A DNA stretch of 52,392 nucleotides from Lentimicrobium sp. L6 (GTDB lineage Bacteria > Bacteroidota > Bacteroidia > Bacteroidales > UBA12170). The position numbers and the translations under genes are program-made. The stretch lies in contig NZ_JABKCA010000034.1 of the NCBI RefSeq assembly GCF_013166655.1, positions 1 to 52,392 of the forward strand. The letters run 5' to 3'. Of the stretch, positions 13,787 through 45,325 are shown piece by piece. Position 1 is the first letter of the stretch. Every line of letters starts with the position of its first letter. The notes below the pieces were generated by a model that saw only the letters and a program-made list of their open reading frames with translations, had not been told where the DNA came from and searched no databases.

Positions 13787-15736
13787 ATGCCTTTTAGTTT
13801 TAATAGAAAAATATGGGTCCTTATAATGTTTCCGCTAATGCTTGGCGGAAGCATTAAAGCCCAGCTTCCTTTGCCCGAAGATTTCTGCCATCATGCCAAA
13901 TCAGGGTTTAACTATTCACGCACTACTCAGATAGACTATTCTAAACACGATCTTTTTGACATACATTTCTATTATCTAAATCTTGCGCTAGAAACCAATG
14001 ATACTTATGTTGATGGAAAAACCATCATTCAAGCCACAAGCCTTTCCAATATAGATACTATTCACCTTGAACTCACTCATGAACTCGAAATTTCTAAAAT
14101 CCTCGTCAACCAATTACCTGCCCAATTTATTCATCAAAATACGGATATCGTAGAGATTATTTGTCCTATTGAGATTCCTCAGGAAAACAACTTTGAAATA
14201 GAAATACAATATAACGGCACCGCCATTTCTGATAGAGGAAGAGGATATAACACTGCGAATTCTTATCATGGGACACGAGTAAACTGGACTTTATCGGAGC
14301 CCTTTTACTCTAAAGATTGGTGGCCTTGCAAACAAGATTTGGAAGACAAAGCCGATTCGGTTTGGGTATTTGTCACTACCTCGAATAAAAATAAAGTTGG
14401 AAGCAATGGATTGCTCACCAATACAGTAGCATTAGAAAATGAGAAAGTAAGATATGAATGGAAAAGTCGTTATCCCATAGCCTATTACCTCATCAGCATT
14501 GCTTTGGCTGAGTATATGGAATATAGCTTCTACAGTCCATCACCAGAAGGAAAAGAGGTTTGGATGCTGAATTATCTTTATCCCGATTCTGCCATGTATA
14601 AAGCTCAAAAAACGCTGATTGATTGCACCCATGTTCAAATGAACCTTCTGCAAGAAAAGTACGGAAGCTATCCATTCATTGACGAGAAATATGGTCATTG
14701 CATTAGTCCAATTGGAGGAGGAATGGAACATCAAACCATGACCACACAAAGGGATTTTCAATTCCACTTAACCATTCACGAAATGGGACATTCTTGGTTT
14801 GGGAATCAGGTAACCTGTGCCCAATGGAACGACATCTGGATTAATGAAGGATTTGCCACTTATACCCAATACCTAGGTTTAGAAAATCTTGTAGACCAAC
14901 AATCTGCTGATGCCTTTAATGCCGCCATGCAATCGGTAGTGATGCGAGAACCAGATGGAAGCGTTTATGTTCCTGATGAATATTTGGAGGATCGTGATCG
15001 GATATTTTCAGGTAGATTATCCTATTACAAAGGCGCTGTCATCATACAAATGATCAGGTACCTGTTAGAGGATGATGAGTTGTTTTTTTACGTGCTTCAG
15101 GAATTTCAAACTCGTTTTGCTTATCAAACCGCCACTGGAGAAGATTTCAAAGAAGTATTAGAAGAGCTGAGTCAACAAAACTTTGAGGAGTTTTTCAATA
15201 TTTGGTATTACGGAGAGGGCTATCCCATTTATAATTTCAATTGGCAACAAATTGTTTCAGGGAAACTCAAAATAGAATCTCAGCAAGAAAGCAGCACCCC
15301 TAAGACGGAATTCTTCCCCATGAAATACGATATACTCCTCTTTTTTGAGGATGGCACAAATAAAGAAATCCAGGTCAGCCAAGAAAAGCCATTTGAGTCA
15401 TTTGAGTTTGATTTTGTAAAACGAGTAAGCAATATTCTCCCCAACCCAAGAAGCCAGAATTTAATGGATGTGAAATCGGTAAATACGGGTATGCTTTTGC
15501 CAGAAGAGGTTTCGATAGAACCCAATCCCGCCACTTCGGCATTTATTCTTCGCTTTGCCAATGCCAATTTAGAAAGGGAAATAGAAATCTATAATTCCTC
15601 CTTGCAAATAATAGAAACGCAAGAGGCACCTCATCAAAACCAATATATAGAATGCCACACTTGGGCCAGAGGAATATATTTTATCAAAGTGAAAAATGAT
15701 AAAAAAGAAAACCTGAAAAAGTTGGTGAAGTTTTAA
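13787..15736 (+). CDS. Secreted M1-family zinc aminopeptidase with T9SS domain
   Basis: A 649-residue exported gluzincin. It has a signal peptide (about 1-25, SIKAQ), an N-terminal M1 beta domain (about 50-210), and a catalytic domain with the zinc motif H331-E-M-G-H335 and third ligand E354 (WINEGFATY). The exopeptidase loop reads GGGMEHQ instead of the textbook GAMEN. A C-terminal T9SS sorting domain starts at about 575 (IEPNPATSAFILRF). It is shorter than full-length aminopeptidase N, lacking the large ERAP1-like helical domain, as is common for secreted Bacteroidota members. It stands alone and converges on the GH13 gene, 21 bp apart. Confidence 0.9.
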   Translation: MPFSFNRKIWVLIMFPLMLGGSIKAQLPLPEDFCHHAKSGFNYSRTTQIDYSKHDLFDIHFYYLNLALETNDTYVDGKTIIQATSLSNIDTIHLELTHELEISKILVNQLPAQFIHQNTDIVEIICPIEIPQENNFEIEIQYNGTAISDRGRGYNTANSYHGTRVNWTLSEPFYSKDWWPCKQDLEDKADSVWVFVTTSNKNKVGSNGLLTNTVALENEKVRYEWKSRYPIAYYLISIALAEYMEYSFYSPSPEGKEVWMLNYLYPDSAMYKAQKTLIDCTHVQMNLLQEKYGSYPFIDEKYGHCISPIGGGMEHQTMTTQRDFQFHLTIHEMGHSWFGNQVTCAQWNDIWINEGFATYTQYLGLENLVDQQSADAFNAAMQSVVMREPDGSVYVPDEYLEDRDRIFSGRLSYYKGAVIIQMIRYLLEDDELFFYVLQEFQTRFAYQTATGEDFKEVLEELSQQNFEEFFNIWYYGEGYPIYNFNWQQIVSGKLKIESQQESSTPKTEFFPMKYDILLFFEDGTNKEIQVSQEKPFESFEFDFVKRVSNILPNPRSQNLMDVKSVNTGMLLPEEVSIEPNPATSAFILRFANANLEREIEIYNSSLQIIETQEAPHQNQYIECHTWARGIYFIKVKNDKKENLKKLVKF

Positions 15737-15757: not shown

Positions 15758-17386
15758 CTATTCAGAGACTTTAAAAATAAGAAAATCATCGGTTTGTAAT
15801 TGCGACGAACCTAGAAGCACCTTTGTTTTTTCAGGTAATTCAAAAACCAATGGCTTTCCAAAATTAATGAGCACATGAACTCTGGAACCATTATACATTC
15901 TTACAAAATGAATGCAATCCTCCTGAATAGTTAATTTCTCGTAGTCGCCGTATTGCAATGTTGCTTCAGTATTTCTTAAGGCAATTAGTTTTTTATACTT
16001 AGAAAGCATGGATTCCTCATCGGTTTCTTGCTGTGCTACATTCAGAGTTTTATAATCTGGATTTATGGGAATCCAACTTTGAGTAGCTGAAAATCCTGCT
16101 AGTGTGTCAGTACTCCATTGCATGGGACTGCGCGATTTATCCCGATTGTGTGTATTCGCGATTTCAAGAGCTTCTTCCCTTGTTTTTCCTTCCTGAATGG
16201 CCAAGTGATAATGAGTGATTCCTTGCACATCTCTAATTTCTTCAAAAGAATGGGCAATATGGTTTTTCATCCCAATCTCTTCACCAAAGTAAATAAAGGG
16301 CACACCTTTGGCAGTCAGCATCAAAACAGCAAGAGCATAAGCTCTTTCGGGATTGCTTTTTGCCAGCCTGCTCTGCATGCGGGGCATATCGTGACTACCA
16401 AAAAACAAAGTTGGATCATTGCTCATATTGCTTTCCATACTTTGCAATTCCTCAAAAAGCTTTTGTGCCGAAAACTCGGGGATGCTTCCAAAATTGAAAT
16501 TAAACACCACATCCAATAATTCTTCTCCTTGATATTGCTTAAGGACTTCTATTTTATCACTTCCTATCTCTCCCACAATAAAGCGATTATCGTATTCATT
16601 GACGGTTTCTTTTATGGTCTTCATGGCTTGTTTTACCCCTTTCTGATCGAGATCATAAATATGTCTTTGATTTCCATTTTCATCTATTGGGTTATCGAGG
16701 GTAATGCCTTCTGTGCTAAGAAAGTTGATCACATCGAGTCTAAAACCATCCACTCCTAAATCCAACCAAAAACGAAAAACATACTGTACTTCTTCCATCA
16801 CTTTTGGATTTTGCCAATTCAGATCAGCCATTTCCTTAGCAAACTTATGATAATAGTACTGCTGAGTGATAGAATCGTATTCCCAAGCCTTTCCACCAAA
16901 AAAGGATTCCCAATTATTGGGTGAGTCTTTCCAAATATAATAATCACGATAGGGATTGTCTTTGGATTTCCTAGATTCCTGAAACCAATAATGTTCCGTA
17001 GAAGTATGATTGACAACAATGTCGATGATGACTTTGATATCACGCTTATGGGCCTCCGCTATAAAAACATTAAAATCGTCTAGATTCCCGTATGTGGTGT
17101 CTACTTTTAAATAATCACTGATATCGTATCCATTATCCACTTTTGGTGATTGAAAAAAAGGAGTCAACCAGATGCCTCTTACTCCTAATGAGGCTATATA
17201 ATCCAATTGAGAAGTCATACCTTTAAAATCGCTGTAGCCATCCTCATCACTATCCTTGAAGCTAGGCATATAGATTTCGTAAAAGACCGTTTCTTTCCAC
17301 CACTGTTTTTCAATATTGGATTCAGGTGGAGCATGACAAGAGCTCATGATAATCAAGAGTAAAAAACTGGGGATAAGCGTTTTCAT
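15758..17386 (-). CDS. GH13 alpha-glucosidase/alpha-amylase-family lipoprotein
   Basis: A 542-residue lipoprotein (lipobox MSSC, C17) with a GH13 TIM barrel. The calcium-loop sequence DSDEDGYSDFKG (45-56) is typical of the oligo-1,6-glucosidase/trehalose-synthase branch. Catalytic residues are nucleophile D218 (DGFRLDV), acid/base E273 (VGEIG) and transition-state stabiliser D333 (SHD in place of the usual NHD). A domain-B segment runs about 125-185, and the C-terminal beta domain is short. It is the last gene of the 16.7-kb glycan locus, 33 bp after the unknown-family lipoprotein. It implies alpha-glucosidic linkages in the substrate. The specificity (alpha-1,6, alpha-1,4 or trehalose-like) cannot be told. 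Confidence 0.9.
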   Translation of the reverse strand: MKTLIPSFLLLIIMSSCHAPPESNIEKQWWKETVFYEIYMPSFKDSDEDGYSDFKGMTSQLDYIASLGVRGIWLTPFFQSPKVDNGYDISDYLKVDTTYGNLDDFNVFIAEAHKRDIKVIIDIVVNHTSTEHYWFQESRKSKDNPYRDYYIWKDSPNNWESFFGGKAWEYDSITQQYYYHKFAKEMADLNWQNPKVMEEVQYVFRFWLDLGVDGFRLDVINFLSTEGITLDNPIDENGNQRHIYDLDQKGVKQAMKTIKETVNEYDNRFIVGEIGSDKIEVLKQYQGEELLDVVFNFNFGSIPEFSAQKLFEELQSMESNMSNDPTLFFGSHDMPRMQSRLAKSNPERAYALAVLMLTAKGVPFIYFGEEIGMKNHIAHSFEEIRDVQGITHYHLAIQEGKTREEALEIANTHNRDKSRSPMQWSTDTLAGFSATQSWIPINPDYKTLNVAQQETDEESMLSKYKKLIALRNTEATLQYGDYEKLTIQEDCIHFVRMYNGSRVHVLINFGKPLVFELPEKTKVLLGSSQLQTDDFLIFKVSE

Positions 17387-17419: not shown

Positions 17420-19153
17420 TCATTCATAACGATAATCAATCACCACAGCATCTGCATAAAGCTTAGTGTCTTTAGCTTCAATTTTTGCATTTATAGGAAC
17501 CAAAACCAAAACGGCAGCCTCTTCTTTCTTCATGGTAAATGCAAATTCCCCTATGGCACCATTTGAGATAAATGCTCTTTTGGTGGCGTCATAGACTTTC
17601 ACTTTTTGAGTTCCAACAGAAATGATGACTTCTTTGGCCTCAGCATTTGGATTATAATACAAATAACTTGGGTAGGCTGCTGCCTTATAAAAATCCGTTG
17701 CCAATAAATCCAGTTGAAGGATATTTTCAATATTGGTTCTTGAAATAATGGATCCTGCAATTCCCACATGACCACTTCCATAAACACTAAACTGAGAAAC
17801 CTTTGGGTTCTTATTATTCCAATGCATACCATCACCTATGGCAACAGGAGGTTCAATATGTTCATATTGCTTGTAATGTGCTTTTTTGATGAGGCCTTCG
17901 TAAGCTATCACCCCTTTGGTAAACTCTTTTTCTTCAGGAATAGTTTGATGTTCATCAGGAATCTCGTAAGGATAAAATAAGCGAGACGCATTTGCTGCAT
18001 TTAATATCCACTTCCCAATAGCCTGAGCATAACGCTGATCGTAGCGTACCAGAGGAACCAATGGCCACATCACATCATAGGTATTCATTAAAAATCCAAA
18101 ACCTCCTTGATCTTCTGTACTACCCACTAAACCAGAAACATCGTATCCATTCCAATTGTCATCTAAAACACCCCAACCTTTACGACAAACTGCTGTACCG
18201 TCGAAAGTCCAGTCTAGGATATTGCTAAAATCATAATGAGTACCCTGTTCTGCGTTCATCCTTGCAGCAACATAAGCACCAAAAGGCATTAGTATTTCAT
18301 AAAAATAATTTTCTTCCTGATTTAAAAGAGATTCCAGGGCGGACTTTGCTCCCTTTAAATACTTAGGATCTTCAAATTTCTGATAAGCAGAATAAAGAAC
18401 AAAAGCATGACCCGCCGCGGCATCTTGTTGGGTGCAAATCCAATTTTTTGTGGGTTGCATGGTAGAATAATCGAAGAATGAATAGGCGTAATTTCCGTTT
18501 AGTGTGGAATCGGCCAGATAAAACTGATTAGCTACAGAGCGGAGAATGGTTTCGAAATCTTGCTGCTCCGGATAGAAATTAGCAACAGCATAAAACATCA
18601 CATTTGGATATACATCGTACCACCAATCTCTGGCATAGCCACCGCCCAATTGAGCGACTTCAGGACAAGTATTGTTCATCATGATATTCCATTGGGTTTC
18701 GCTATTGAAGTAATTCTTCAACATAGCTACATAGTTTTCTCCATTTTGATTGGACTTATCAATGCCCACCAAACTTGCTCCTAATACTGAACCCATACTG
18801 GCCAAGGATTCATGGAAAATTCCCTCATAGTTTTCAGGACCTTGTCTCACATCTCCCATAGCGGTATAAATGCCAAAGGTTTCTTGGTCGAAGTTTTTCC
18901 TTGAATTGTCTTTCCATACCAAGGGCCAATATTTTCCTGTTTGATTGGTATCATATACTTTAGCGTCGTAATCCTTAGCTAGCTGATTAAAGTCTATTAT
19001 TTTAAAGGGCAATGGAAGATTAGGCATCTGCTCAATCCGTAAAATAGATTTTTGTGCAACAGGATGAGCTTCCTCAAATGTTGTTACGGTATTACAAGAG
19101 CTGAGGAATAAAGCCATTAACATAAACACACTAGTTATTCTGTTCATTCTCAT
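17420..19153 (-). CDS. Lipoprotein of unrecognised, putative glycan-active family
   Basis: I cannot name this family. The roughly 577-residue product has a lipoprotein signal (MALFLSSC) and is homologous over its whole length to the N-terminal half of the 1032-residue protein at 21437-24535. Shared blocks, in order, are RIEQMPNLP, G-x-Y-x-PLV, GIDKSNQ, DWWY-xx-xPN, ARMNAE-x-GT-xYD, GWG, D-x-SGL and AIGKWILN-x-ANASRLFYP, then a small beta-sandwich (about 495-577). The helical repeats with conserved Trp, Asp and Glu suggest an (alpha/alpha)-barrel glycosidase or lyase (inference). ATG 19153 is used; ATG 19147 is equally possible, and both overlap the MFS gene end. Confidence 0.7.
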   Translation of the reverse strand: MRMNRITSVFMLMALFLSSCNTVTTFEEAHPVAQKSILRIEQMPNLPLPFKIIDFNQLAKDYDAKVYDTNQTGKYWPLVWKDNSRKNFDQETFGIYTAMGDVRQGPENYEGIFHESLASMGSVLGASLVGIDKSNQNGENYVAMLKNYFNSETQWNIMMNNTCPEVAQLGGGYARDWWYDVYPNVMFYAVANFYPEQQDFETILRSVANQFYLADSTLNGNYAYSFFDYSTMQPTKNWICTQQDAAAGHAFVLYSAYQKFEDPKYLKGAKSALESLLNQEENYFYEILMPFGAYVAARMNAEQGTHYDFSNILDWTFDGTAVCRKGWGVLDDNWNGYDVSGLVGSTEDQGGFGFLMNTYDVMWPLVPLVRYDQRYAQAIGKWILNAANASRLFYPYEIPDEHQTIPEEKEFTKGVIAYEGLIKKAHYKQYEHIEPPVAIGDGMHWNNKNPKVSQFSVYGSGHVGIAGSIISRTNIENILQLDLLATDFYKAAAYPSYLYYNPNAEAKEVIISVGTQKVKVYDATKRAFISNGAIGEFAFTMKKEEAAVLVLVPINAKIEAKDTKLYADAVVIDYRYE

Positions 19154-20381
19154 CTTCAAATTGTTTTTGTTGGGTTAGAAGTTGTTTTGCAATAAATATG
19201 GAAAGCAGTTGAAGTGTACCAATAATGAGGAGGGCATACCTTAAAGCAATGTCAGCATTGATGTAAAAAGCGAGAACTAAAAAGGTGCCGGCACCAAAAA
19301 AGCGCCCTACAAATAGTCCAAATTCATGATTCAAAATATAGGCAAACTCATTTCTGTTCTCGTGTTTTGAAAGTAAGTCAATCACTTTTAGCTGGATAGG
19401 GAAATAAGCGATATCAAGGACTGGGCGTGCTATTAAGAGCAAAAACATAAAAATGATAACTCCAAGCTGATTGAATAGAAGGCCGTTGATAAAAGAAGCT
19501 AGGAAGAAGAAGATAAGTCCAAAGCTAAAAATGATCAGGCGATGTTTGGGCTGTGAAATTTTACCTAAAATCAACATGACAAAGGCAGCGATTAGAGCCC
19601 CAATGGATTGAGCGGTTCCTAAAGCACCCTCCGAAGCGAAAAATTTCATCATAAGCATAGCAGGGGCCGTAACGATAAAGCCTTGAGCTAATCCTTTTAA
19701 AACGGCCAACTGCAGCATTTTATTCCAGAGCTTATGAAATTTGAAGAAAAGGAATTTCTCACTTCGTGGTTTCTCGTATTTCCCAAAATGAAATATGATG
19801 GAGGCTAAAATGGTAATAGCAAATACCACACCCGTTACCACTCTGTATCCTGTATTTATTCCTTCGTTAGTCGCTTCATTTCCTTTCATTAAATACCAAC
19901 CAATCATGATGGGCACAATGGATGCGATGATTGTATAAAAAAAAGTTTCTAAACCATAATAGTAATTTCTGGTTTTGTCTTTCGTTGTGGCCAAAACCAG
20001 ATAATCTCGATTAGCCCAATACAATCCAAATGACATGCCCATTATTAAGCCTGCCCCAACCAAACCAAAATAATTGATTTCATTTAAGGACATCATAAAC
20101 ACCATGGAAACACCACTCAGTAACATCCCAGCAGAGAAAAGCCTTTTGATGTTTATTCGATTCAGTAAAAACCCATTTAAATAGAAAGTGATGGGAATAC
20201 CTGTGTAAATAGCCAATTGATAGAACATCACCTTAGCCGGGTCATTGGAGTTCCTCATGATATAAGAAGCCACGAAAATATCTATAACGGGTAGCACAAA
20301 GGCATAAATCACATTAGTGAGGATTAATATTTTTGTACTCCTCGAAAAATCTCTAAAACCTACTGCTTTTATTTTGATCAT
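19131..20381 (-). CDS. MFS transporter, probable oligosaccharide importer
   Basis: A 416-residue inner-membrane protein with about twelve hydrophobic segments arranged in two halves, fitting the major facilitator superfamily. I start at ATG 20381 (MIKIKAVGF): the frame extends 51 bases further, but that would overlap the GH130 gene, whereas ATG 20381 overlaps the GH130 TAA by one base (TAATG coupling). The coupling to a cytoplasmic GH130 enzyme suggests it imports the oligosaccharide that enzyme cleaves. Substrate identity is inference. Confidence 0.85.
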   Translation of the reverse strand: MIKIKAVGFRDFSRSTKILILTNVIYAFVLPVIDIFVASYIMRNSNDPAKVMFYQLAIYTGIPITFYLNGFLLNRINIKRLFSAGMLLSGVSMVFMMSLNEINYFGLVGAGLIMGMSFGLYWANRDYLVLATTKDKTRNYYYGLETFFYTIIASIVPIMIGWYLMKGNEATNEGINTGYRVVTGVVFAITILASIIFHFGKYEKPRSEKFLFFKFHKLWNKMLQLAVLKGLAQGFIVTAPAMLMMKFFASEGALGTAQSIGALIAAFVMLILGKISQPKHRLIIFSFGLIFFFLASFINGLLFNQLGVIIFMFLLLIARPVLDIAYFPIQLKVIDLLSKHENRNEFAYILNHEFGLFVGRFFGAGTFLVLAFYINADIALRYALLIIGTLQLLSIFIAKQLLTQQKQFEDENEQNN

Positions 20382-21430
20382 TATATATCTAGTTTGGATA
20401 ATATTTCTTGGATTGAAAAGTTGGCTTTGCATACATATTCATCTGAAGCGCCATAATACATTTGAATGGTATCGCCCTGTGTGATATGACCATTGGTAAA
20501 AACTACATTACCAAAAAATCCTGTTTGTTCATATTCTGCCATGGGCTCCATAATGGCTTCTTCAGATCGTGCCAATACAATAGAAGGATCTTGAAGATCT
20601 AAAAGAATAGCACCTAAACAATATCTATTATCTTCAGTAGCTCCGTGGTATATTTCCAACCAACCTTTCTCAGTTTTAATAGGTGCTGCTCCAGCTCCTA
20701 AACGATGGCTATCGAATTTACCAGCTCGGGTTTTGGCAATACATTTATGATTTCCCCAATGTATTCCATCGGGAGACTGAGCTAACCACATATAATTACC
20801 TCCCAATTCTGGGCTGCTTGGACGATGGAGTGCATAGTATTTACCGTCGATTTTTTCTTCGAAAATGGCACAATCTTTATTATGAGGACTAAAAATCATT
20901 CCTCTCTTCTCAAAATGCTTCCAATCCTTGGTCGTTCTTAGTCCAACACCCACTCCATTGGCCGAAACCATAGTATAGCTAAGATGATAGGTGTCCTCTA
21001 TTTTAACCACCCGGCAATCTTCTATTCCATAGGATTCATATTCGCCTTCACCAAAAAGAGAAGCATATCCTTCTGGCTCATAGAAATGAATGCCATCTTT
21101 GCTACAAACCAATCGCAGATGAGAGATGGTGGTTAGATAATCTACTCCATCGTAATTTATCACTCTGGCGTCGCTTGCATTTAGCTTGGGGTCTTTAAGA
21201 TCGAAATGAATGATCTCCACTTTACCCTCCTCGTTGTATATAGGAACAGATAAAACGCCACCTTTTTGAATTGTTCGTTCTGCTACACGAATGAGCAGCC
21301 AGGTTTTACCGTCATATTCAAAAACACCTGGATTGAGTAAGCACTCAATGTCCATATTTACTTCGCTTGCTTTTAAATCGCCCGGTGATAAAATTGGATT
21401 TTTCTCGTATCGTTTTGCTATGTCGGCCAT
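20381..21430 (-). CDS. GH130-family glycoside phosphorylase or hydrolase
   Basis: A 349-residue five-bladed beta-propeller enzyme of GH130, without signal peptide and so cytoplasmic. The start RYEKNPILSPGDL and the catalytic-Asp block GIEDCR (D138) are family hallmarks; the usual Pro after Asp is Cys here. GAGAAPIKTEKGWLEIYHG (about 245-265) lines the active site. GH130 enzymes act on beta-mannosides (mannosylglucose, beta-1,2- and beta-1,4-mannan, N-glycan core). Without a structure-based check of the phosphate-binding residues I cannot decide between phosphorylase and hydrolase. It lies between the 1032-residue secreted protein and the MFS transporter and differs clearly from the second GH130 at 42937-44115. 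Confidence 0.88.
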   Translation of the reverse strand: MADIAKRYEKNPILSPGDLKASEVNMDIECLLNPGVFEYDGKTWLLIRVAERTIQKGGVLSVPIYNEEGKVEIIHFDLKDPKLNASDARVINYDGVDYLTTISHLRLVCSKDGIHFYEPEGYASLFGEGEYESYGIEDCRVVKIEDTYHLSYTMVSANGVGVGLRTTKDWKHFEKRGMIFSPHNKDCAIFEEKIDGKYYALHRPSSPELGGNYMWLAQSPDGIHWGNHKCIAKTRAGKFDSHRLGAGAAPIKTEKGWLEIYHGATEDNRYCLGAILLDLQDPSIVLARSEEAIMEPMAEYEQTGFFGNVVFTNGHITQGDTIQMYYGASDEYVCKANFSIQEILSKLDI

Positions 21431-21436
21431 GTCTTG

Positions 21437-24400
21437 TTATTTTGAAATGATTATTTTTTTGACTTTAGATAATTCACCTATTTGAATTTTTAATAAATAC
21501 AGTCCTGATTCCATCTGTTTGGTGTTCAATTGGAATAGCGTTTTATGATTAGTCCATATTCCCTTTAGTAGGGTTCTTCCGGAAAGGTCTATAAACTCAT
21601 AATTGATTTCTGATTCAGCTAAAGAATGAAGCTCTATATATAAAGCCTCTTTTGCTGGATTTGGAAACACCTTTACATTTTCTAAAACATTCCCCAAATC
21701 CCATGTTGATGATACATTATCATAAATATCCATAATATGAGTAGGAGATAGAGGATGATCGAAAAGATAGATTTCATCAAGTCTTCCTCTATAATAAAAA
21801 TCCTGATCGGGACGGGCTTTCCCAAGGACTAAATCATAGGAAGTGCTGGAGATTTCTCCAGAAAAAGGAATAAAGGAATCCAGTTCACCATTGATATAAA
21901 TCTCCAAATCAGTTCCACTATACACCATGGCCATATGATACCAGCTATCGTTGTTTAATAGTATTTTGGCATCCAGATCTTTGACCCCATAATTGGTTTT
22001 TACCGTAAATCGAAGGATATGATTTGCGATGGATACTTTCCATCGATCGTCCCAATTGCCATGTGAAATGGGATAAGCTTCACCCGCATTTATATTTTGA
22101 GCATAAATCCAGGCTGTCAAGGTCAATCCTGCTTTAAAGTTAAGCTGTTCATTGTTGGTAATACGGATGTATGAGGAGGAGCCATTAAAGGCAGCCGCAT
22201 TTTCAGAGAGGCTATAAACATCTTCTTCATATTGAATATTAAAGGCTGTAGTTTCCTGATGGAATGGACTTTCATCATTTACATTTCCGCTAAATGGCAG
22301 ATACAGAATAGGCTCTCCTATTTCCAGACTCGATATATCGCGAACCATCACTATTATACTGTCTCTTACTCCTCCATCGCTATCAGAAACCTTGCAATAT
22401 ATTTTATAATCACCAATCATCATGGGAGCTGTCCATTGTATTTCTTCTCCGCTACCCAAAATGCTTCCCTCCTCTGTTATCCATTCAAACACTATTTCAT
22501 CCCCGTTTTCCTCGTATACTTGGCAATTAATCATGCTGCTTTCTCCTAAATCAATTTTTCCGGGGGAGGCTTTTAAGGATTTAATCTCTGGAATAAATGG
22601 AATCCTGTCCTTAACTTCAATAGTTATAGTGGACGAGTCGCTTAATCCTGATTCTGAAACCAGCACACATTTTATATTGTAAAAGCCTGGTACGATTGGG
22701 GCTTTTATCGCCAGTATGGATTCTCCATCAATCGACTGGTCATCTATGCTCCAATGATAGCTCAGTTCTGAGGGGTTTTCATCTTGAACCGAACAAAATA
22801 TCTTTATAGAATCACTAATGACAATAGGGTTTTTTAATGCTTTTAGTGCCTTTATCCTTGGAGGAACATCCGTAATTATTTCCCCATTGTCAAAGTCGAT
22901 AACAAGCGAATTTGCTAAAGTTTTTTTGCCATCATTTGTCAAGTCAGCATTATTGGGCACATAGACCAAAATAACTGACTTATTTGCTGGAATCGAGATG
23001 TCAACAGTTCCAGAAACATTATTTAGCATAAAGGCATTATCTATGCTATTATAAATATCAATGGTTTCTTCTCCCACATCTAGGCTAATTAGGGTGTCAT
23101 TATCGTAAGGATTCCATATCAAAAAGCTAGGGTAAGCATTGGAGTAAAAATCTGTTTTGCATAAATTTAATTTTAAAACAGCCTCCACATTAGTCAAAGA
23201 AACCATGCCGCCTAAATAGCCAACATGAGATGCTCCGTAGAGCGCTAAATTAGTAGGAGCCCATCCGTTTCTCACGGCATCACCAGTAGCAAAAGGGCTC
23301 TTATCATTTAGTATTTCTTTCAGGGCCTCATGGGCGATGGAATTATGGGGATCGTTGGCTAGTGCCCACTCTTCACTGTCCTGTTGGTCTGCAGGTAAAA
23401 ACCCAGGATAAAACAGCCTGCTGGCATTGGCCAGATTGAGTATCCATTTACCGATAGCATCAGCATAATGCTCATCATATCTAACTAAAGGAACCAAGGC
23501 CGCTGCATGCTGAAAGCCATTCATGATAAAAGCATAATCGTTTCCGCCATCGTTGGCTTCACCTATGAGTCCTGAGCAATCATAATCGCCCCACTGACCA
23601 ATAATAGTTCCCCATCCCCTCAGGTTTCCACGGTCAAAACTCCAATTCAGCATTTTTTCAATATCGTAATTCGTTCCTATTTCGGCATTCATTCGCGCCG
23701 CAATATAGGTTCCATAGGGGAGTTGGATTTCATAGGAAGGATTCTCGTTCCAGTTATTCAGGAATTCCAGCGCCCATTCGGCACCGATTAAATAGTCTTC
23801 GTTTTGCGTTTTCACATAGGCATTATACAGGATCCAAGCAATGGCCCCTGCCGCCTCAGGTTGTTTCACGCCTTCAGTGAGCGGAATCATCTGTTCTAAA
23901 TTCCAAGCTCTATAATTCATATAGGGGATTTGCCAAGGACTTGAGTTTCCTCCCATTTCTCTAACAGCCTCTAACCACCGATTGGCGATGGTTTCAAACT
24001 GATAGTTGAAGGCTCCTGTATTTGGATATAAATCATTTAATTGATAGAAGAAGATATTGGGCATGGTTTCGTACCACCAATCGTTACCACTACTTGCTGA
24101 ATAGTTGTTTAAATATACATTTTCGTCAGAGCCGAGATTAAAAAAATCTTCGCTCATGAGTACCCAGTTTTTTTCAAACTGATTGCTTTTATCTATTCCA
24201 GCTAATGTAGCTCCGATGATAGCAGGCAAATAATTGATTCCTTCGGCTGAGGTTCCCAAGGGTTGACCCACATAAGTCACCATGGCGGCATTCTCATGAT
24301 TAGGGTAATTAATTCCACTAGCATTAATTCCTACTAGAGGTAAATATTCTCCTGATAAGCTCCTATCAAAAACCAAGGAATCATAGCTCTGTGCCACCTG

Positions 24401-24535
24401 TTTCCAGTCTCGCATAAGATAAGGCTGAGGAAGGTTTGGCATTTGTTCTATTCTAGGAATAATGATTTGCTGAGCGGCCATATTGCCTACTCCCCAAAAG
24501 ATAAAAAATAGGAATATGAAGCGTTTTAATAACAT
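21437..24535 (-). CDS. Large secreted multidomain protein: unknown N-domain, Ig/PKD repeats, LamG, T9SS
   Basis: A 1032-residue exported protein. The signal peptide runs to about residue 21. The N-terminal domain (about 25-545) is paralogous to the lipoprotein at 17420-19153, with shared RIEQMPNLP, GIDKSNQ, DWWYETMPN, ARMNAE and ANASRLFYP blocks. Two Ig/PKD-like domains follow (about 560-650 and 655-745; each with Y/FEW...S...I-x-C). Next is a LamG/concanavalin-like domain (about 770-930, LYLPFSGNVNDES...) and then a T9SS sorting domain (about 955-1032, FPNPAKEALYIELH). It is probably a surface or secreted glycan-degrading enzyme with a carbohydrate-binding module; the catalytic class is unknown. 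A strong inverted repeat lies just upstream. Confidence 0.75.
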   Translation of the reverse strand: MLLKRFIFLFFIFWGVGNMAAQQIIIPRIEQMPNLPQPYLMRDWKQVAQSYDSLVFDRSLSGEYLPLVGINASGINYPNHENAAMVTYVGQPLGTSAEGINYLPAIIGATLAGIDKSNQFEKNWVLMSEDFFNLGSDENVYLNNYSASSGNDWWYETMPNIFFYQLNDLYPNTGAFNYQFETIANRWLEAVREMGGNSSPWQIPYMNYRAWNLEQMIPLTEGVKQPEAAGAIAWILYNAYVKTQNEDYLIGAEWALEFLNNWNENPSYEIQLPYGTYIAARMNAEIGTNYDIEKMLNWSFDRGNLRGWGTIIGQWGDYDCSGLIGEANDGGNDYAFIMNGFQHAAALVPLVRYDEHYADAIGKWILNLANASRLFYPGFLPADQQDSEEWALANDPHNSIAHEALKEILNDKSPFATGDAVRNGWAPTNLALYGASHVGYLGGMVSLTNVEAVLKLNLCKTDFYSNAYPSFLIWNPYDNDTLISLDVGEETIDIYNSIDNAFMLNNVSGTVDISIPANKSVILVYVPNNADLTNDGKKTLANSLVIDFDNGEIITDVPPRIKALKALKNPIVISDSIKIFCSVQDENPSELSYHWSIDDQSIDGESILAIKAPIVPGFYNIKCVLVSESGLSDSSTITIEVKDRIPFIPEIKSLKASPGKIDLGESSMINCQVYEENGDEIVFEWITEEGSILGSGEEIQWTAPMMIGDYKIYCKVSDSDGGVRDSIIVMVRDISSLEIGEPILYLPFSGNVNDESPFHQETTAFNIQYEEDVYSLSENAAAFNGSSSYIRITNNEQLNFKAGLTLTAWIYAQNINAGEAYPISHGNWDDRWKVSIANHILRFTVKTNYGVKDLDAKILLNNDSWYHMAMVYSGTDLEIYINGELDSFIPFSGEISSTSYDLVLGKARPDQDFYYRGRLDEIYLFDHPLSPTHIMDIYDNVSSTWDLGNVLENVKVFPNPAKEALYIELHSLAESEINYEFIDLSGRTLLKGIWTNHKTLFQLNTKQMESGLYLLKIQIGELSKVKKIIISK

Positions 24536-24694: not shown

Positions 24695-25726
24695 TTAAGG
24701 CTTTTCTAGATTATAGATAGAAGATACCTCAGCACCAGTTAATACTCTGTTGTATAATCTGATATCATCTAATTTACCATTAAAATAACCACCCCAGGCT
24801 GCAGGGATAATATGATCATTATCGTAATTAGAATCATCATCGGCATATTTACTTGAACCACATCCAATAGCTAGGTCATGGTCTTCCACTTTAACTAATC
24901 CACCAGTAACATCAGTGTATTCTTGTTGTTTAGCTCCATTTACATAAAATATCATGCTTCCTGATTCATAGGTTACAGTAAGATGATACCAAGTTAATAC
25001 TTCTAATACAGGATCGGTGTCTTTGTCATAAATGCCATCGTCAGTAGAAGCAGTAAAGAAAGATTTATTTACTGATTGAAGTTGATATTTAAATCCATTC
25101 CAAGATTGTAATCCCATAAAACGATTGTTTTCTCTAATCTCTGTAGCATTTACCCATAATGAAATGGAGATATTTGCAGGATTTAAAGCTAGGGTATAAG
25201 GCACATTAATAAAACCACCTTCATTAAAATAATAGGCATTGTTTTCGTTGCCAAATCTGTCAGTGGTTAGTGCAGGCATTCCTCCACCAAATGCTGCATG
25301 GCCAGCACTTAAAACTCCATCATTACCATTACCAGTAAAATCAGTAGCATCGCCATCGAATAACCAATATGCAACAAGTCCATCGGTAGAAACATTCTGT
25401 ATAAATTTACCTTCAAAAATTGTTTTAGCAGCTTCTAAATTCACTTCAGCGGCATCCATTACGCTTTGAGCAGAAGCACTTGGAACTGCGTTAGCTGCAT
25501 CTATAGCTGTTTTAAACACCTCTTTTGATCCTACTTCGTAGAAACCTACTGATGTTCCCTCTTGAGCTCCATCATACAAAGCTTCACAATCCACTATTAA
25601 AGCAGTTAAAGCAGTCTTATCTCCTGCTGGAGTAACTGGATCGTCATCTTCACTACACCCTGTTACAAAAACGCTAATTGCCATCATTAGAGAAAATAGC
25701 ATTAAGAAATTCATTGATTTTTTCAT
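24695..25726 (-). CDS. LamG-domain surface lipoprotein (SusE-position)
   Basis: A 343-residue lipoprotein with a signal ending in a lipobox (VFVTGC) followed by Ser/Glu/Asp-rich residues, a pattern linked to surface export. A helical, FIVAR-like region (about 35-105, with ALYDGAQEG and AKTIFEG) precedes a LamG/concanavalin-type domain (about 115-343, VAYWLFDGDATDFTGNGNDG). I start at ATG 25726; the frame continues upstream into the susD 3' end without a better start. Its place directly after susC and susD suggests a surface glycan-binding protein. Confidence 0.85.
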   Translation of the reverse strand: MKKSMNFLMLFSLMMAISVFVTGCSEDDDPVTPAGDKTALTALIVDCEALYDGAQEGTSVGFYEVGSKEVFKTAIDAANAVPSASAQSVMDAAEVNLEAAKTIFEGKFIQNVSTDGLVAYWLFDGDATDFTGNGNDGVLSAGHAAFGGGMPALTTDRFGNENNAYYFNEGGFINVPYTLALNPANISISLWVNATEIRENNRFMGLQSWNGFKYQLQSVNKSFFTASTDDGIYDKDTDPVLEVLTWYHLTVTYESGSMIFYVNGAKQQEYTDVTGGLVKVEDHDLAIGCGSSKYADDDSNYDNDHIIPAAWGGYFNGKLDDIRLYNRVLTGAEVSSIYNLEKP

Positions 25727-25772
25727 AATATACTTGTTTATTAATAAATAATTAATTGAAATTGATTTCAAA

Positions 25773-27296
25773 TTAGTAACCAAAATTTTGAGTTATATTT
25801 TTGTTGGTTTCCATTTCTGATTGGGGAATTGGAAACACTTTATGTATTTCATATACGAAATTGTCTTTTTCAGAGAATACGCTTTCTGAGTACTCTTTTC
25901 CATATCTAATCACATCAAAATAGCGCATGCATTCAAAGCCTAGCTCCACGCGTCTTTCGTGGCGAATGGCATTACGTAAAGCAATCTGCTCTGTTGTGAC
26001 TACATCTGGCAATAAACCTTCTGGAATGTTGCCGTAATCTGTAAGTTTATTGTCATACAAATAACTCTCTCTCGCTCTCTTTCTCACCATATTCAATGGG
26101 ATAAGAGCCTCTGCACAGCGGTTTAATTCACATAAAGCTTCTGCCTGAATAAGCAAAACTTCGGCATAACGAATCACGGTAAAGTTTAAATCAGCATCAC
26201 TTTTAGAACTTGTAGGTATTTCAGAGAGTGGTTGTAATGATTTCTTCTGGTTATATCCAGTTGATGACCAGGAAGAACTATAGGGTTCCTCGTCAAACCA
26301 AAGCTGACCATCTCTACCTAAAGTGTAATCTAATCGAGGATCATAAATACTATCCGCTGTGAGTTCAAATTCATCCACGAAATCCTGAGTAGGTTCGTCG
26401 AAACCATATCCATTTTGCTCTCGAGGTGCTAGCCATTGATTCAATCTGTTTCCTAATACAGGATCATAGCCCGATAAATGCTGAATTTGAAATATTTGCT
26501 CTTGATTATTATCATACAACACATTGAAGTTATGCTGATAAATAGGCATTAAAGAAAAGCCATAAGCTATAACACTTTTGCTTGCAGTAACAGCCTCCTC
26601 CCATTTTTTATTGAATAAATAGGTCTTTGCTAATAAAGCCTTAACAGCTGCAGGATTAGCCCTGCCACGCTCGCTAGAAGGATATACATCTGGATTTTGT
26701 ATTAATGCAGTCTCCATGTAATTAAAAGCGGTTATAAAATTAGATTCTATATGATTGTATACCAGCTCTTGACTGATATTTGCAACCTGCATGTCTTCAG
26801 GTTCTAAGGGCTCTAAAATGAGGGGGATATTACCAAATATATTACATAGATTAAAATAGAAATAAGCTCTAAGAAAGTGTGCTTCTCCTAATATTCTGTT
26901 TTTCAGTGCTACATTCATGTCTATAGCAGGAACATACTTGAGGACCATATTACAACGAGAAACGCCTTCATAATAAACACTCCAAATGGTTTCCAGATTT
27001 CCATTATCTTCAAAAATTCGGAACTCATCAATAAGCTCTATATCAGCTTGGTCGCCGGGGAATCCTCCTTTTACAGCATCGTCTGAAACCACGTCGGAGA
27101 GCACCCATAGGCGATTATCAGAATTGGCAAAAGACAAAGGTTCGTAACAAGCGTTAATAGCCAATTTCGCATGGCTTTCCGTTTGGTAAAACTCTGCAGT
27201 GGTATAAAGTCCTTGAGGTTTTTCATCTAAAAACTTATTACAGGATGTCATCATTAAAAAACAAAGTGTGATTATGGTATATATAAATGTTTTCAT
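25773..27296 (-). CDS. SusD/RagB-family outer-membrane glycan-binding lipoprotein
   Basis: A 507-residue SusD-like lipoprotein (lipobox MMTSC, C19; then NKFLDEKPQG, a typical SusD start). The helical TPR scaffold is visible (AHFLRAYFYFNL, AVKALLAKTYLF) and the C-terminal signature is present (RHERRVELGFECMRYFDVIRYG). It caps the SusC barrel and presents oligosaccharide for import. It lies 16 bp downstream of susC and is clearly co-transcribed. Confidence 0.95.
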   Translation of the reverse strand: MKTFIYTIITLCFLMMTSCNKFLDEKPQGLYTTAEFYQTESHAKLAINACYEPLSFANSDNRLWVLSDVVSDDAVKGGFPGDQADIELIDEFRIFEDNGNLETIWSVYYEGVSRCNMVLKYVPAIDMNVALKNRILGEAHFLRAYFYFNLCNIFGNIPLILEPLEPEDMQVANISQELVYNHIESNFITAFNYMETALIQNPDVYPSSERGRANPAAVKALLAKTYLFNKKWEEAVTASKSVIAYGFSLMPIYQHNFNVLYDNNQEQIFQIQHLSGYDPVLGNRLNQWLAPREQNGYGFDEPTQDFVDEFELTADSIYDPRLDYTLGRDGQLWFDEEPYSSSWSSTGYNQKKSLQPLSEIPTSSKSDADLNFTVIRYAEVLLIQAEALCELNRCAEALIPLNMVRKRARESYLYDNKLTDYGNIPEGLLPDVVTTEQIALRNAIRHERRVELGFECMRYFDVIRYGKEYSESVFSEKDNFVYEIHKVFPIPQSEMETNKNITQNFGY

Positions 27297-27312: not shown

Positions 27313-30300
27313 TTAAAAACTCATATTAAATCCTAATGTATAAACTCGTGCCATGGGGTAGGTTCCCCAATCTATGCCTTTAGCCAAATCACCTTCTCCA
27401 ACAGCATTATCACTGGTTTGCATCTCTGGATCTAACCCGGGGTATTTAGTGAATGTGAATAAATTCTGGACGCTGAGATAAATTCTTAGAGATTTGATAA
27501 TGGTTTTATTCTTACCTATATCGCTAATGGTATATCCGAGATTTACATTCTTAATTCGCACATAGGAAGCATCAAAAAGGAATCGGGTGGAAGGTTTCTT
27601 ATTATTTGCAGCTCCTTGCCAAGAGACTCTAGGTTGTGTATCACTAGTTCCTGAGCCTGTCCATCGGTCATCATATACCCTAGTTGTCACATTAAAAGCT
27701 CTATAAAATCCTTCTATATCATGTGCCGCCTGCCAGTACACTTCATTTCCAAACACGCCTTCAACAAAAAGGGTAAAATCCCATTTCTTATAGTTTAAAC
27801 CCATATTAAAGCCCAAAGTATAATCAGGAATTGGGCTTCCTACATGTGCTCTATCATAAGAATCTATAATACCATCGGGGCTACCAGTGGGTCCACTAAT
27901 ATCTTTATATTTAACATCCCCCGGCTTTATATCACTACCTTGATAGGCATGAGTAAAAATATCTGTTTCATCTTGAAAGATGCCTTCCATTTCGTATAAA
28001 TAAAAAGAGCCCACAGGATGTCCTTCTTCAGTGAGTGTTGCAAATACTCCATTATCAATTCTTCCTGCAGGAATAGGGTTTCCATCGTATAACTCCAGTA
28101 CTTCATTATTTACATGAGAGAATACAAATGCTAAATCATATTTTACTTTTCCTAGTTGATCTTTATAACTTAATTCAAGTTCTATCCCGTTATTCTTAAT
28201 TTTGGCAGCATTAACCACTGGAGGAGATGCTTCACCACTGCTAGGAGGAAGTGGTGCATTAATCAGCACATCATCTGATATTTTGTCGAAATAATCAAAG
28301 ACTACAAATAGTTTATTTCCAAAGAGTCCCAAATCTAAACCAATATCTACTTGAGTTTGACTTTCCCAACGAATATTCTCATTACCATGTTGCGATAAAT
28401 AATAACCTGACATGGCCGTGGTACCAAAGGGATAATAAGAACCTGATGAAATGATGGATGCATAACTGTAATTTCCAATTTTCTGATTTCCTAAAACCCC
28501 TGCACTCATACGGAGTTTTAAGTAGGACAGCATGTCGACATCCTTTAAGAAAGATTCCTTATCCACTCGCCATCCAATAGCAGCAGCAGGGAAAAAGGAC
28601 CAAGGATAATTAGAACCGAAACGAGAAGAGCCATCCTCACGAACCACGATTTCTGCATAGTATTTCTTTTCATAATCATAAGAGATTCTACCAAAGAAGG
28701 ACAATAATGCCCAGCTTTCTTGCCAGCCATCAACACGCTGATTGGTGGTGCCATTAGAGAGATATCGCAAACTAGGAATTTGATCTGGAAAATTTTGAGC
28801 AGAACCTTGCTGCCCAACAGAGGTGTTTTTTATGGCCTCCATTCCTACCAGTATATTCAAATTATGCTTTTCATTGAATACTTTATCATAAGTTAATGTA
28901 TTTTTCCAAGTTTGTTCACTGGTTATGAGCGATTGCTGCACCAATGTGTTTGGATTATTAATTCGCCCATCATAACCCCAGTTTTCGTTAAATCTCTTGT
29001 CTCCCAAAGACAAATAATCCAAGCCAAAATCTGTTCTGAATGTAAAATGATCATTTATCTTCCAATTGAGAAAAATATTACCCAAGAGACGATGTTCTTT
29101 CAATCTCCAATCGTATTTATTGGCAAATCCAACCGGATTATAACCATCTCCCATAAACTGAGCTGCTTCAGGGTAATAATCTACATATTCACCATTATCG
29201 TCGTAAATGGAATATAAAGGCGCTCTAAAAAAAGCATAACGAACAACAGAGCCCCCATTTCCGCCATATCCATCTCCAGAACTGCCAACTTTATCAGTGA
29301 TGGCACTAGATAAGTTAATATTGGTTCCTATTTGTACCTTATCAGACAAATTGCTATTCATGGATGTTCTGAAGGAATACTTATCATATCCTGAATTAAT
29401 AATAATTCCATCCTGATGAAAATAATTACCCGAAACAATATAATTCATCTTCTCATTACCGCCGCTTACACTTAAACTTGTTGAGGTAATGACCGCAGGC
29501 CTAAATATTTCATCCCAATAATTTACATTAGACATGGTGTCAGCCATTTCGGAGCTAATAATAGCTCTTCCGTCATTATTAGCCGCTTCGTTATATAATT
29601 CGATATATTGATCCTTATCACACATCTCCGTTAAATTAGTAGCGGTTTGAATACCAGTATAAGAGTCGAAATTTATTCTCATGCCGCCTTCTTTTCCTTT
29701 TTTAGTGGTGATCAGTACCACCCCTCCTGAAGCACGAGAGCCATATATGGAAGCAGCGGCCGCATCTTTTAAAATAGATATGGACTCAATTTCACTAGGG
29801 ATAACAGCGTTGCCGTCAGTGGTTGGGATTCCATCAATAATATACAAAGGCGAATTATCGTTGAATGTACCTGTTCCTCTAATTCTGATAGAGGTTCCGG
29901 CACCAGGAGCACCAGAGTTTTGAGTAACACTTACACCTGTGGCCTTTCCTTGTAAGGCCTGTCCAACATCAGCCACCGGGAGGTTGGAGATTTCTTTAGA
30001 TTTAACAACAGAGACGGCACCAATAATATCTGTTTGTTTCTTTATGCCATAGCCAATGGCGACGGCCTCATCCAAAGTAAAAACAGCCATTTCTAGTATC
30101 ACATTTATCTCCGTATGACCTGCAATTCCAACAATCTGCTTTTCGAAGCCTATATATGTAAAAACCAGCGTGTCATCAAGACTTGGGACTTCAAGTTCGT
30201 AACGTCCATCAATGTCACTAACTGCACCTTGAAAGGTGCCTTTCAATACAACACTTACGCCAATTAAAGTCTCTCCAAGATCATCAGTGATGAGTCCTTT

Positions 30301-30660
30301 TATAATTGTTTTTTTGGTTTTCTGAACATCCTCCACTTTTGGCATAATCACAATATGGTTATCCAAAATTTCGAAGGATAATCCAGTCCCTTTCAAACCT
30401 TGACTTAGAAGTGTGCTTATATCAGATTCTTCTTTGTTAACAGATATATCCTTATTAAGGTCTACCTGGTCGTTTTGATAGAATATTTTATATGTTCCTT
30501 TATTTTCAATAAATCGAAATAAATCATTAAGTGTCTGATTATCTGTATCTTTATCATTTTGTGCTAGAGCACTTATAGAGAAGCTAGTTAAATAAACAGT
30601 AAAACATAATAACAAAAACCATTTAATGCTCAGGTTTTTAAAAGAATAGAATTTTCTCAT
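27313..30660 (-). CDS. SusC/RagA TonB-dependent transporter with STN domain
   Basis: A 1115-residue outer-membrane importer. In order: signal peptide (to about 35), STN signalling domain (about 45-105), carboxypeptidase-D-like domain (about 115-200), plug (about 205-330, with LPVADVGQALQGKATGV and GAPGAGTSIRIRGTG), then a 22-strand barrel ending in MARVYTLGFNMSF. The STN domain marks a transducer-type SusC that signals glycan binding to the adjacent FecR anti-sigma factor. ATG 30660 is used; an upstream TTG is unlikely. It starts 22 bp after fecR, tying regulation and transport together. Confidence 0.95.
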   Translation of the reverse strand: MRKFYSFKNLSIKWFLLLCFTVYLTSFSISALAQNDKDTDNQTLNDLFRFIENKGTYKIFYQNDQVDLNKDISVNKEESDISTLLSQGLKGTGLSFEILDNHIVIMPKVEDVQKTKKTIIKGLITDDLGETLIGVSVVLKGTFQGAVSDIDGRYELEVPSLDDTLVFTYIGFEKQIVGIAGHTEINVILEMAVFTLDEAVAIGYGIKKQTDIIGAVSVVKSKEISNLPVADVGQALQGKATGVSVTQNSGAPGAGTSIRIRGTGTFNDNSPLYIIDGIPTTDGNAVIPSEIESISILKDAAAASIYGSRASGGVVLITTKKGKEGGMRINFDSYTGIQTATNLTEMCDKDQYIELYNEAANNDGRAIISSEMADTMSNVNYWDEIFRPAVITSTSLSVSGGNEKMNYIVSGNYFHQDGIIINSGYDKYSFRTSMNSNLSDKVQIGTNINLSSAITDKVGSSGDGYGGNGGSVVRYAFFRAPLYSIYDDNGEYVDYYPEAAQFMGDGYNPVGFANKYDWRLKEHRLLGNIFLNWKINDHFTFRTDFGLDYLSLGDKRFNENWGYDGRINNPNTLVQQSLITSEQTWKNTLTYDKVFNEKHNLNILVGMEAIKNTSVGQQGSAQNFPDQIPSLRYLSNGTTNQRVDGWQESWALLSFFGRISYDYEKKYYAEIVVREDGSSRFGSNYPWSFFPAAAIGWRVDKESFLKDVDMLSYLKLRMSAGVLGNQKIGNYSYASIISSGSYYPFGTTAMSGYYLSQHGNENIRWESQTQVDIGLDLGLFGNKLFVVFDYFDKISDDVLINAPLPPSSGEASPPVVNAAKIKNNGIELELSYKDQLGKVKYDLAFVFSHVNNEVLELYDGNPIPAGRIDNGVFATLTEEGHPVGSFYLYEMEGIFQDETDIFTHAYQGSDIKPGDVKYKDISGPTGSPDGIIDSYDRAHVGSPIPDYTLGFNMGLNYKKWDFTLFVEGVFGNEVYWQAAHDIEGFYRAFNVTTRVYDDRWTGSGTSDTQPRVSWQGAANNKKPSTRFLFDASYVRIKNVNLGYTISDIGKNKTIIKSLRIYLSVQNLFTFTKYPGLDPEMQTSDNAVGEGDLAKGIDWGTYPMARVYTLGFNMSF

Positions 30661-30682
30661 AATCAATCATTTAAAAAACAAC

Positions 30683-31699: not shown

Positions 31700-31785
31700 G
31701 ATGGGCATATTTTTACTAATCATACCCTTTAGAGTCGAAATCTGACGCTTTATACTCACTTAAAAATAAATAAATATTTAAATTA

Positions 31786-32427
31786 CTACAATAGGCCGGA
31801 TATCAGTATGTTAACAAAGTTAATGTTATTTTGTTTTTGATGTTTCCTTAAAGTTTTTATTGTTCTAGCCAGTAAGTTGGCTACAGATTGTTGCTTGATT
31901 GATAAAATCTCACTTATTTCTATATTGGAATAATTACCATAGAATTTCAGATAAATGATCTCTTTCTGGTTTGGACAAAGTTTCGCCAATAGTTCTTTGA
32001 TGATTTGCTCATTCTCTATTTGAGATTCATGTTCTAAATATATTTCTTCAGGGGAGATATCAAACTGGTGATGGCTAATCTTATTCTCATCCGAATAACA
32101 ATCGTTTAATAAATCCTTTGGGGAATTTTTTAAAATATTATTTCTTAAAGAAGTAAAGAGATAGGCTTTTACATAAGTCACCTCTTTATTACTCGTTCTC
32201 TTTTCCCAAATGTTGGCGAATAAATCTTGAATAGTATCGGCAGCGCTATGATGCTTACTTTCTAATTTTGAACCATAAAAAAACAAATCATCATAGTATT
32301 TGTCAAATAGTGTCTTTAAAGCAATCGGATCCCCAAGTTTTATGGCATTCCACAGCTGTTGATCCTCATCAAGTTGAAAATTGACAGTTTTGCCATTTTC
32401 GCTTTTTTGGCGTTTGGGTTGCTTCAT
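31786..32427 (-). CDS. ECF-type RNA polymerase sigma-70 factor
   Basis: A 213-residue sigma factor. Region 2 spans about 28-95 (ALKTLFDKYYDDLFFYG; DTIQDLFANIWEKR). Region 4 spans about 140-195 (LCPNQKEIIYLKFYGNYSNIEISEILSIKQQSVANLLARTIKTL). It belongs to the Bacteroidota FecI-like group that activates susC-susD operons. The extended, Lys-rich N-terminus (about 1-25) is unusual but short. It is the first gene of the locus and is paired with the FecR gene downstream. Confidence 0.94.
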   Translation of the reverse strand: MKQPKRQKSENGKTVNFQLDEDQQLWNAIKLGDPIALKTLFDKYYDDLFFYGSKLESKHHSAADTIQDLFANIWEKRTSNKEVTYVKAYLFTSLRNNILKNSPKDLLNDCYSDENKISHHQFDISPEEIYLEHESQIENEQIIKELLAKLCPNQKEIIYLKFYGNYSNIEISEILSIKQQSVANLLARTIKTLRKHQKQNNINFVNILISGLL

Positions 32428-45321: not shown

Positions 45322-45325
45322 TACT

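Follow-up and report, generated by a model that had tools for sequence, protein, structure and literature searches.

Glycoside hydrolase family 130 (GH130) enzymes that finish the breakdown of β-1,2-mannosides are known, and the origin of their substrates is often open. For Thermoanaerobacter, it is reported that no potential source has been identified within the genus (PMC4264767). Among described members, Uhgb_MS is listed as a mixed-linkage mannoside synthase; β-1,2-mannobiose is among its products, and α-1,2-mannobiose also serves as an acceptor (PMC8950772). Members acting on β-1,2 linkages differ from those acting on β-1,4 linkages by a lysine (Lys199 of BT3780), conserved only in the former, and by a Glu in place of Tyr before the putative catalytic Asp (PMC4599007). 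Here we analyze two related genes, PAR1 and PAR2, on a 52,392-nt stretch of Lentimicrobium sp. L6 (Bacteroidota; contig NZ_JABKCA010000034.1, positions 1 to 52,392), hereafter the window. In the window, a GH130 gene lies between them. We propose, with a probability of about 0.5, that PAR proteins form an uncharacterized (α/α)6-type glycoside hydrolase family that degrades β-1,2-linked mannosides, either β-1,2-mannan itself or a glycan bearing such chains.

PAR1 and PAR2 share a domain of no recognized family

Open reading frames and their translations define PAR1 as a 577-residue lipoprotein (17420–19153, minus strand) and PAR2 as a 1032-residue secreted, modular paralogue (21437–24535, minus strand). 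An earlier sequence-only reading of the window had claimed that the former is homologous to the N-terminal part of the latter. BLASTP confirms this, aligning PAR1 residues 33–574 with PAR2 residues 21–548 at 37% identity (208 of 555 columns, 340 bits, E = 2e-109). The blocks named in that reading (RIEQMPNLP, GIDKSNQ, DWWY, ARMNAE, DxSGL and AIGKWILNxANASRLFYP) are present in both translations. When the organism's own genome (195 contigs, 96.5% complete) was searched with PAR1, only two places were found, PAR1 and PAR2. Read by eye, the N-terminus of PAR1 contains a lipobox, LFLSSC, in agreement with the idea that this copy is membrane-attached, and that of PAR2 is an ordinary signal peptide.

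The PAR1-homologous domain of PAR2, as delimited by BLASTP and the own-genome search, comprises residues 20–548 (22892–24478, minus strand). Beyond it, on the same strand, lie two all-β, Ig/PKD-like domains (residues 560–731, 22343–22858), a LamG-type domain (residues 784–934, 21734–22186; PF13385, 79.1 bits) and a C-terminal sorting domain of the type IX secretion system (T9SS; residues 956–1030, 21446–21670; PF18962, 48.7 bits; TIGR04183, 39.8 bits). Thus, of the modules previously assigned to PAR2, LamG and T9SS are backed by Pfam. The Ig/PKD region has no Pfam match, yet the predicted model contains two small all-β domains there, at about 560–642 and 650–731.

No Pfam or NCBIfam cut-off was reached by the domain that PAR1 and PAR2 share, and no relative was seen among PDB sequences (best E 0.35 in a single-sequence search and 0.54 in a profile search). 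When 29 PAR members were scanned one by one against Pfam, the sole match was C5-epim_C (PF06662), found in four of the 29 with a best E of 4.7e-4, which implies ∼20 bits; PAR1 itself scored 19.7 bits, under the cut-off of 23.3. PF03663 (GH76), PF07944 (GH127/GH146) and PF10091 (our stand-in for GH144) each matched 0 of 29 members at E 0.01. By hhalign, PAR aligned to the C5-epimerase family with a probability of 39.8% over 41 columns. Because GH76 and GH127 match that same epimerase family better (88.9% and 83.2%), we take the PAR match as a generic helical hairpin. The C5-epimerase and LanC-like matches, each a single helical hairpin, were set aside. The earlier description of the family as unrecognized therefore stands for Pfam, NCBIfam and PDB sequences. 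In the open-access literature on GH130 and β-mannan, no β-1,2-mannan depolymerase was found among the matches listed, for which mostly titles and the beginnings of abstracts were available.

PAR1 is predicted to form a helical barrel with conserved acids

The AlphaFold model of PAR1, with a mean predicted local distance difference test score (pLDDT) of 93.1 and a predicted template-modelling score (pTM) of 0.91, consists mostly of helices, with a β-sandwich from about residue 490. This is the fold that had been guessed from the sequence, a helical barrel with a C-terminal β-sandwich. With approximate boundaries, the predicted (α/α)6-type barrel with its loops, as judged from AlphaFold and VIA-align, covers residues 38–480 (17714–19042, minus strand), and the sandwich, placed from the model strands, covers residues 490–575 (17429–17686, minus strand). 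In the PAR2 model (pLDDT 83.9, pTM 0.67) the elements come in a similar order, and after them lie the two all-β, the LamG-type and the sorting domains.

Foldseek searches with the PAR1 model returned GH146/GH127 structures first (E 2.4e-6), with TM-scores of merely 0.2–0.4. Re-examination of Foldseek's matches by VIA-align gave the GH76 structure 4MU9 as the top match to predicted PAR1 (Z 20.5, root-mean-square deviation 3.7, 322 residues, 10% identity), and GH127/GH146 structures were absent from the best 50 VIA-align matches listed. Below the first rows of the Foldseek or VIA-align results were several from among GH116, GH94, AGE epimerases, unsaturated glucuronyl hydrolases, rhamnosidases and other (α/α)6 proteins. 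For the whole PAR2 model, the best 50 Foldseek matches were mostly jelly-roll lectin-like domains, led by botulinum receptor-binding domains with a query TM-score of ∼0.17. These probably reflect the generic LamG-type fold and are not taken as a sign of toxin function.

Across 40 aligned PAR members, six acids (D63, E115, E286, E419, D441 and D487) are invariant (40/40), as are several aromatics. At no two neighboring positions are both residues conserved acids. E115 precedes a predicted helix by one residue and E286 by three, and the position just before helices is a usual place for catalytic acids in barrels of this kind. E115 (18809–18811), E286 (18296–18298), E419 (17897–17899) and D441 (17831–17833), which together span 17831–18811 on the minus strand, are our candidate active-site residues.

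PAR genes adjoin GH130 genes across the phylum

In all 25 PAR1 loci (the window, L003–L019 and L063–L069), GH130, a major facilitator superfamily (MFS) gene and PAR1 are contiguous and co-directional, with gaps of <300 and <600 bases. A contig scan had yielded 17 PAR relatives, biased to close kin because its patterns were derived from PAR1. Broader sampling was done at two levels, each with 395 genomes, own included. The phylum sample had 20 matches, 19 of which were counted as PAR; the one left out (G557) was a partial match, over 92 of 573 positions (E 1.3e-4). The class sample, searched with the PAR1 query alone, had nine. Also left out of the counts was a 49-residue PAR fragment on contig G507:C61. 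Among 20 genomes (the 19 of the phylum sample and G226 of the class sample), 18 have a GH130 gene on the same contig as PAR and no more than 7.3 kb from it, whereas 0.32 would be expected within 10 kb by chance. GH130 exceeded the cut-off in 19/19 PAR genomes of the phylum sample versus 148/395 overall, and 17 of the 19 loci fetched around sampled members contain GH130 (none in L054 and L058). This survey supports the carbohydrate context more strongly than the sequence-only reading had stated.

PAR1 and PAR2 fall into two old clades of the tree (support 100/100), which rules out a recent tandem duplication. PAR2-type proteins of ∼1050 residues occur in other classes with no PAR1 nearby, and seven of nine such PAR2-only loci (L051–L059) contain GH130. 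Among six large neighbors scanned in these loci, three are GH2 proteins (L053, L055 and L059) and the other three are similar to the GH94 superfamily, two over the cut-off (L059:12097–14664 and L051:13095–15584) and one under it (L057:3918–6446). The latter three are possibly a further phosphorylase or hydrolase. A phosphomannose isomerase gene adjoins the GH130-MFS-PAR1 set in L003; L013 and L067 have one there too, as judged by similarity.

Other families recur in these loci. One (c7, ∼822 residues; L010:11892–14363, with relatives in L006, L007, L015 and L018) adjoins PAR1 in flavobacterial loci, or precedes SusC in L018, with no PAR2 in the fetched stretch; neither Pfam nor NCBIfam matches its L010 member, and the family is possibly another depolymerase. 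A second (c8, a lipoprotein of ∼425 residues; L007:6084–7409, L059:4104–5384 and relatives) recurs beside GH130 and PAR in three PAR1 loci and in PAR2-only loci. Two scanned c8 members lack a Pfam match, and hhalign gives a weak match to GH76 (83%). Neither family has a confident hhalign match to PAR (c7, 0.2%; c8, 12.5%). Beside PAR2 and GH130 in L061 is a 1358-residue protein (L061:3475–7551) that contains five LamG-type domains, ends in a T9SS tail and matches PAR2 at 25%; a similar gene, for 1359 residues, occurs at L062:12063. GH130 in L061 also adjoins a gene for an ABC-type solute-binding protein.

The GH130 neighbors carry a β-1,2 signature

The GH130 gene of the PAR locus (20381–21430, minus strand; PF04041, 159.7 bits) encodes a protein whose nearest solved relative is Uhgb_MS (225/346 identical, 65%), followed by the β-1,2-mannobiose phosphorylase Lin0857 (162/349 columns). 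It is a relative of β-1,2-mannobiose phosphorylases with both signature elements, Glu137-Asp138 and Lys185. We read these positions in the fetched loci only, counting a GH130 as near PAR when it lies in the same fetched locus or, for L079, ∼10.5 kb away; the rows L073 and L074, which run to the locus edge, were left out as duplicates. The Lys is present in 41/41 distinct near-PAR GH130s and Glu-Asp in 40, the remaining one being cut off there. For 15 GH130s elsewhere, among them one from a genome lacking PAR (L100) and two from contig G507:C61, the corresponding residues are Lys in nine and Arg with Tyr-Asp in six (Fisher p 1.5e-4 versus the near-PAR set, ignoring shared ancestry). One of these six is the second GH130 of the window (42937–44115), which sits with GH26 and epimerase genes in a β-1,4-mannan-like operon and is a built-in control for the Lys signature.

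The SusC/SusD locus L060 encodes a highly divergent PAR (L025/L060) that has 36% identity to PAR2. Here GH130 passes the NCBIfam model for BT3780-type β-1,2-mannosidases (641.8 versus 550 bits), a ROK kinase is present, and an MFS gene directly precedes PAR. In this independent case, PAR is kept and phosphorolysis would give way to hydrolysis with a kinase, as one would predict were PAR the first to act. In the tree, the L025 PAR has the longest branch and attaches to the PAR1 side, a placement that is unsure because the branch is very long.

The PAR locus of the window

PAR1 and PAR2 belong to a ten-gene co-directional run on the minus strand, from 32427 down to 15758, in the order sigma, FecR, SusC, SusD, LamG protein, PAR2, GH130, MFS, PAR1 and GH13. 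Adjacent SusC and SusD genes, enzymes and a regulator make this a SusC/SusD polysaccharide utilization locus. An ECF-type sigma factor and a FecR anti-sigma factor (30683–32427; PF04773, PF16344 and PF08281) precede SusC, a TonB-dependent receptor (27313–30666; plug 72.2, barrel 48.3 and STN 23.8 bits), SusD (25773–27296; PF07980, 125.4 bits) and a LamG-domain protein that is possibly a surface glycan-binding protein (24695–25783; PF13385, 79.8 bits). The MFS transporter between GH130 and PAR1 (19131–20432; PF07690, 51.9 bits) is probably an inner-membrane disaccharide importer. The run ends with a GH13 protein resembling oligo-1,6-glucosidase (15758–17386; PF00128, 427.7 bits; best solved relative 1UOK, 391.2 bits). 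The neighbors originally described, namely a sigma/FecR/STN-SusC sensor, SusD, GH130, MFS and GH13, thus have Pfam support, with the STN domain under its cut-off of 28.4 bits. Among the exported products of the run other than the two PAR proteins, none had a Pfam match to a mannosidase family.

Two other parts of the window may be mentioned. Convergent with the operon end is an M1 peptidase gene with a T9SS tail (13787–15736, plus strand), probably unrelated. The second GH130 belongs to a separate β-mannoside locus (41028–52324, plus strand) that comprises an SSF transporter, the GH130 with its β-1,4 signature, an AGE epimerase, GH26, a sulfatase, a GH5/GH2-like enzyme and a 610-residue protein with no Pfam match (49589–51421).

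A proposed route for β-1,2-mannan and its alternatives

Homology, fold prediction, the lack of a recognized family, gene linkage and the GH130 signature were computed directly; catalysis by PAR, the linkage cut, endo or exo action and the division of labor between PAR1 and PAR2 are what we infer. Since their genes usually adjoin those of enzymes that dismantle β-1,2-mannan, PAR proteins are probably the missing extracellular cutters of this polymer. PAR2, with its T9SS export signal and LamG domain, would probably cut the polymer outside the cell, and SusC/SusD would carry the fragments into the periplasm. At the membrane, the lipoprotein PAR1 would trim them to a disaccharide, most likely β-1,2-mannobiose. 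The MFS protein would import this product, and GH130 would phosphorolyse it, giving mannose 1-phosphate and mannose. This sequence of steps is suggested by export signals and gene order. More tentatively, and at somewhat less than even odds, PAR would found a new GH family, the first to depolymerize β-1,2-mannan, with two old subfamilies: a modular form exported by the T9SS, PAR2, and a lipoprotein form, PAR1, that goes with an MFS importer and a β-1,2-mannobiose phosphorylase. Of the original suggestion of a new glycosidase or lyase, the glycosidase half gains support from the context; the lyase option, and sulfated glycans as substrate, do not.

Several observations weigh against a β-1,2-mannan substrate. 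In two of the 20 genomes (G507 and G701), PAR lies on contigs without GH130, and the neighborhood counts are not independent, because loci share ancestry. The window GH130 falls under every NCBIfam cut-off (best NF050092, 414.5 versus 550 bits), so its linkage is inferred, and among the near-PAR GH130s scanned only that of L060 reached one. The signature Lys is also found in 9/15 GH130s away from PAR. Moreover, a GH130 for β-1,3-mannosides, its role unelucidated, is known from Zobellia (PMC8950772), and a β-1,3 linkage might fit the signature as well, since the Lys rule separates β-1,2 from β-1,4 only. The Zobellia type, a first guess for the window GH130, appears less likely, as the nearest solved relatives are β-1,2 enzymes. 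The natural glycan may also be α-mannan with β-mannose caps, because Uhgb_MS also uses α-1,2-mannobiose. Finally, an α-glucosidase-like GH13 gene occurs in nine of the 25 PAR1 loci (the window, L003, L009–L011, L013, L018, L067 and L068), which pure mannan does not explain. This suggests that the glycan may also carry α-glucose, and it is through this gene alone that the α-glucan substrate suggested earlier finds support.

In a rival reading that we consider rather unlikely, PAR would cut β-1,3-mannosyl or mixed mannosyl-glucosyl chains, or trim α-linked sugars that bear β-mannosides, and GH130 would take the remainder. The GH13 gene after PAR1, the Zobellia β-1,3-mannooligosaccharide enzyme, the α-1,2-mannobiose acceptor and the GH76 α-mannanases as nearest solved folds by VIA-align are all in keeping with it. 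Yet every readable near-PAR GH130 row has Glu-Asp and Lys, the nearest solved GH130s are β-1,2 enzymes, and a different β-1,2-mannosidase clade accompanies PAR in L060. Less probable still is that PAR falls in a CAZy family already named, but so new or so poorly modelled that Pfam and NCBIfam lack it. The PAR comparison covered Pfam, NCBIfam and PDB sequences, which leaves room for such a family, but no β-1,2-mannan depolymerase is among the open-access literature matches listed. It seems improbable that PAR is non-catalytic and binds glycans at the surface, its fold only resembling that of an enzyme. Although the lipoprotein form, the LamG module of PAR2 and the lack of a recognized catalytic motif would suit a binding role, six invariant acids and several invariant aromatics exceed what binding usually needs, and the other exported products of the run match no mannosidase family. 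Very improbable is a role of PAR as a uronic-acid glycan lyase or epimerase, to which the C5-epim_C matches might point. These amount to a single helical hairpin that scores under the cut-off in PAR1 and is matched better by GH76 and GH127, and the Pfam matches of the run include no uronate-pathway family.

If PAR does found such a family, a phosphorolytic β-1,2-mannan pathway would be scattered across the Bacteroidota, and an overlooked natural β-1,2-mannan would be implied. A family that generates the substrates of GH130 would also make their origin a matter for direct assay, supply an enzyme tool for β-1,2-mannans of the Candida and Leishmania types, and allow β-1,2-mannan use to be read from metagenomes. 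We see in PAR a candidate for a new family of enzymes that is housed in a well-known kind of locus and whose proposed substrate is unusual and can be tested directly.

Comparison with known systems

GH127 and GH146 β-L-arabinofuranosidases combine a helical barrel with a β-sandwich. They are the best Foldseek matches to PAR1, but with low TM-scores (0.2–0.4) and an hhalign probability of 3.9%. GH144 β-1,2-glucanases are helical-barrel enzymes that cut a β-1,2 hexan and feed a phosphorylase; with an hhalign probability of 0.8%, the parallel with PAR is a proposed analogy only. The C-terminal domain of D-glucuronyl C5-epimerase (PF06662) shares one hairpin of 41–59 residues with PAR, below the cut-off for PAR1.

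Closer in fold are the GH76 α-1,6-mannanases (BT_3782, BT3792, BT2949 and Salegentibacter GH76A), which have the (α/α)6 barrel predicted for PAR, occur like it in mannan-degrading Bacteroidota loci and are the best VIA-align matches (Z 18.5–20.5 over 296–331 residues). However, identity is only 8–10% and the hhalign probability 0.9% (with four GH76 sequences only), and the consecutive catalytic carboxylates of GH76, Asp124-Asp125 in BcGH76 and Asp-Glu in BT2949 (PMC9213526, PMC4321491), are missing from PAR. A shared (α/α)6 fold alone does not make PAR a GH76 member, and both motif and profile (0/29 for PF03663) rule this out. The GH130 enzymes (Uhgb_MS, Lin0857, Teth514_1788/1789 and BT3780) have a five-fold propeller unrelated to PAR (PMC8950772). 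They belong to the same proposed pathway, their relatives adjoin PAR, and we propose that they act after it.

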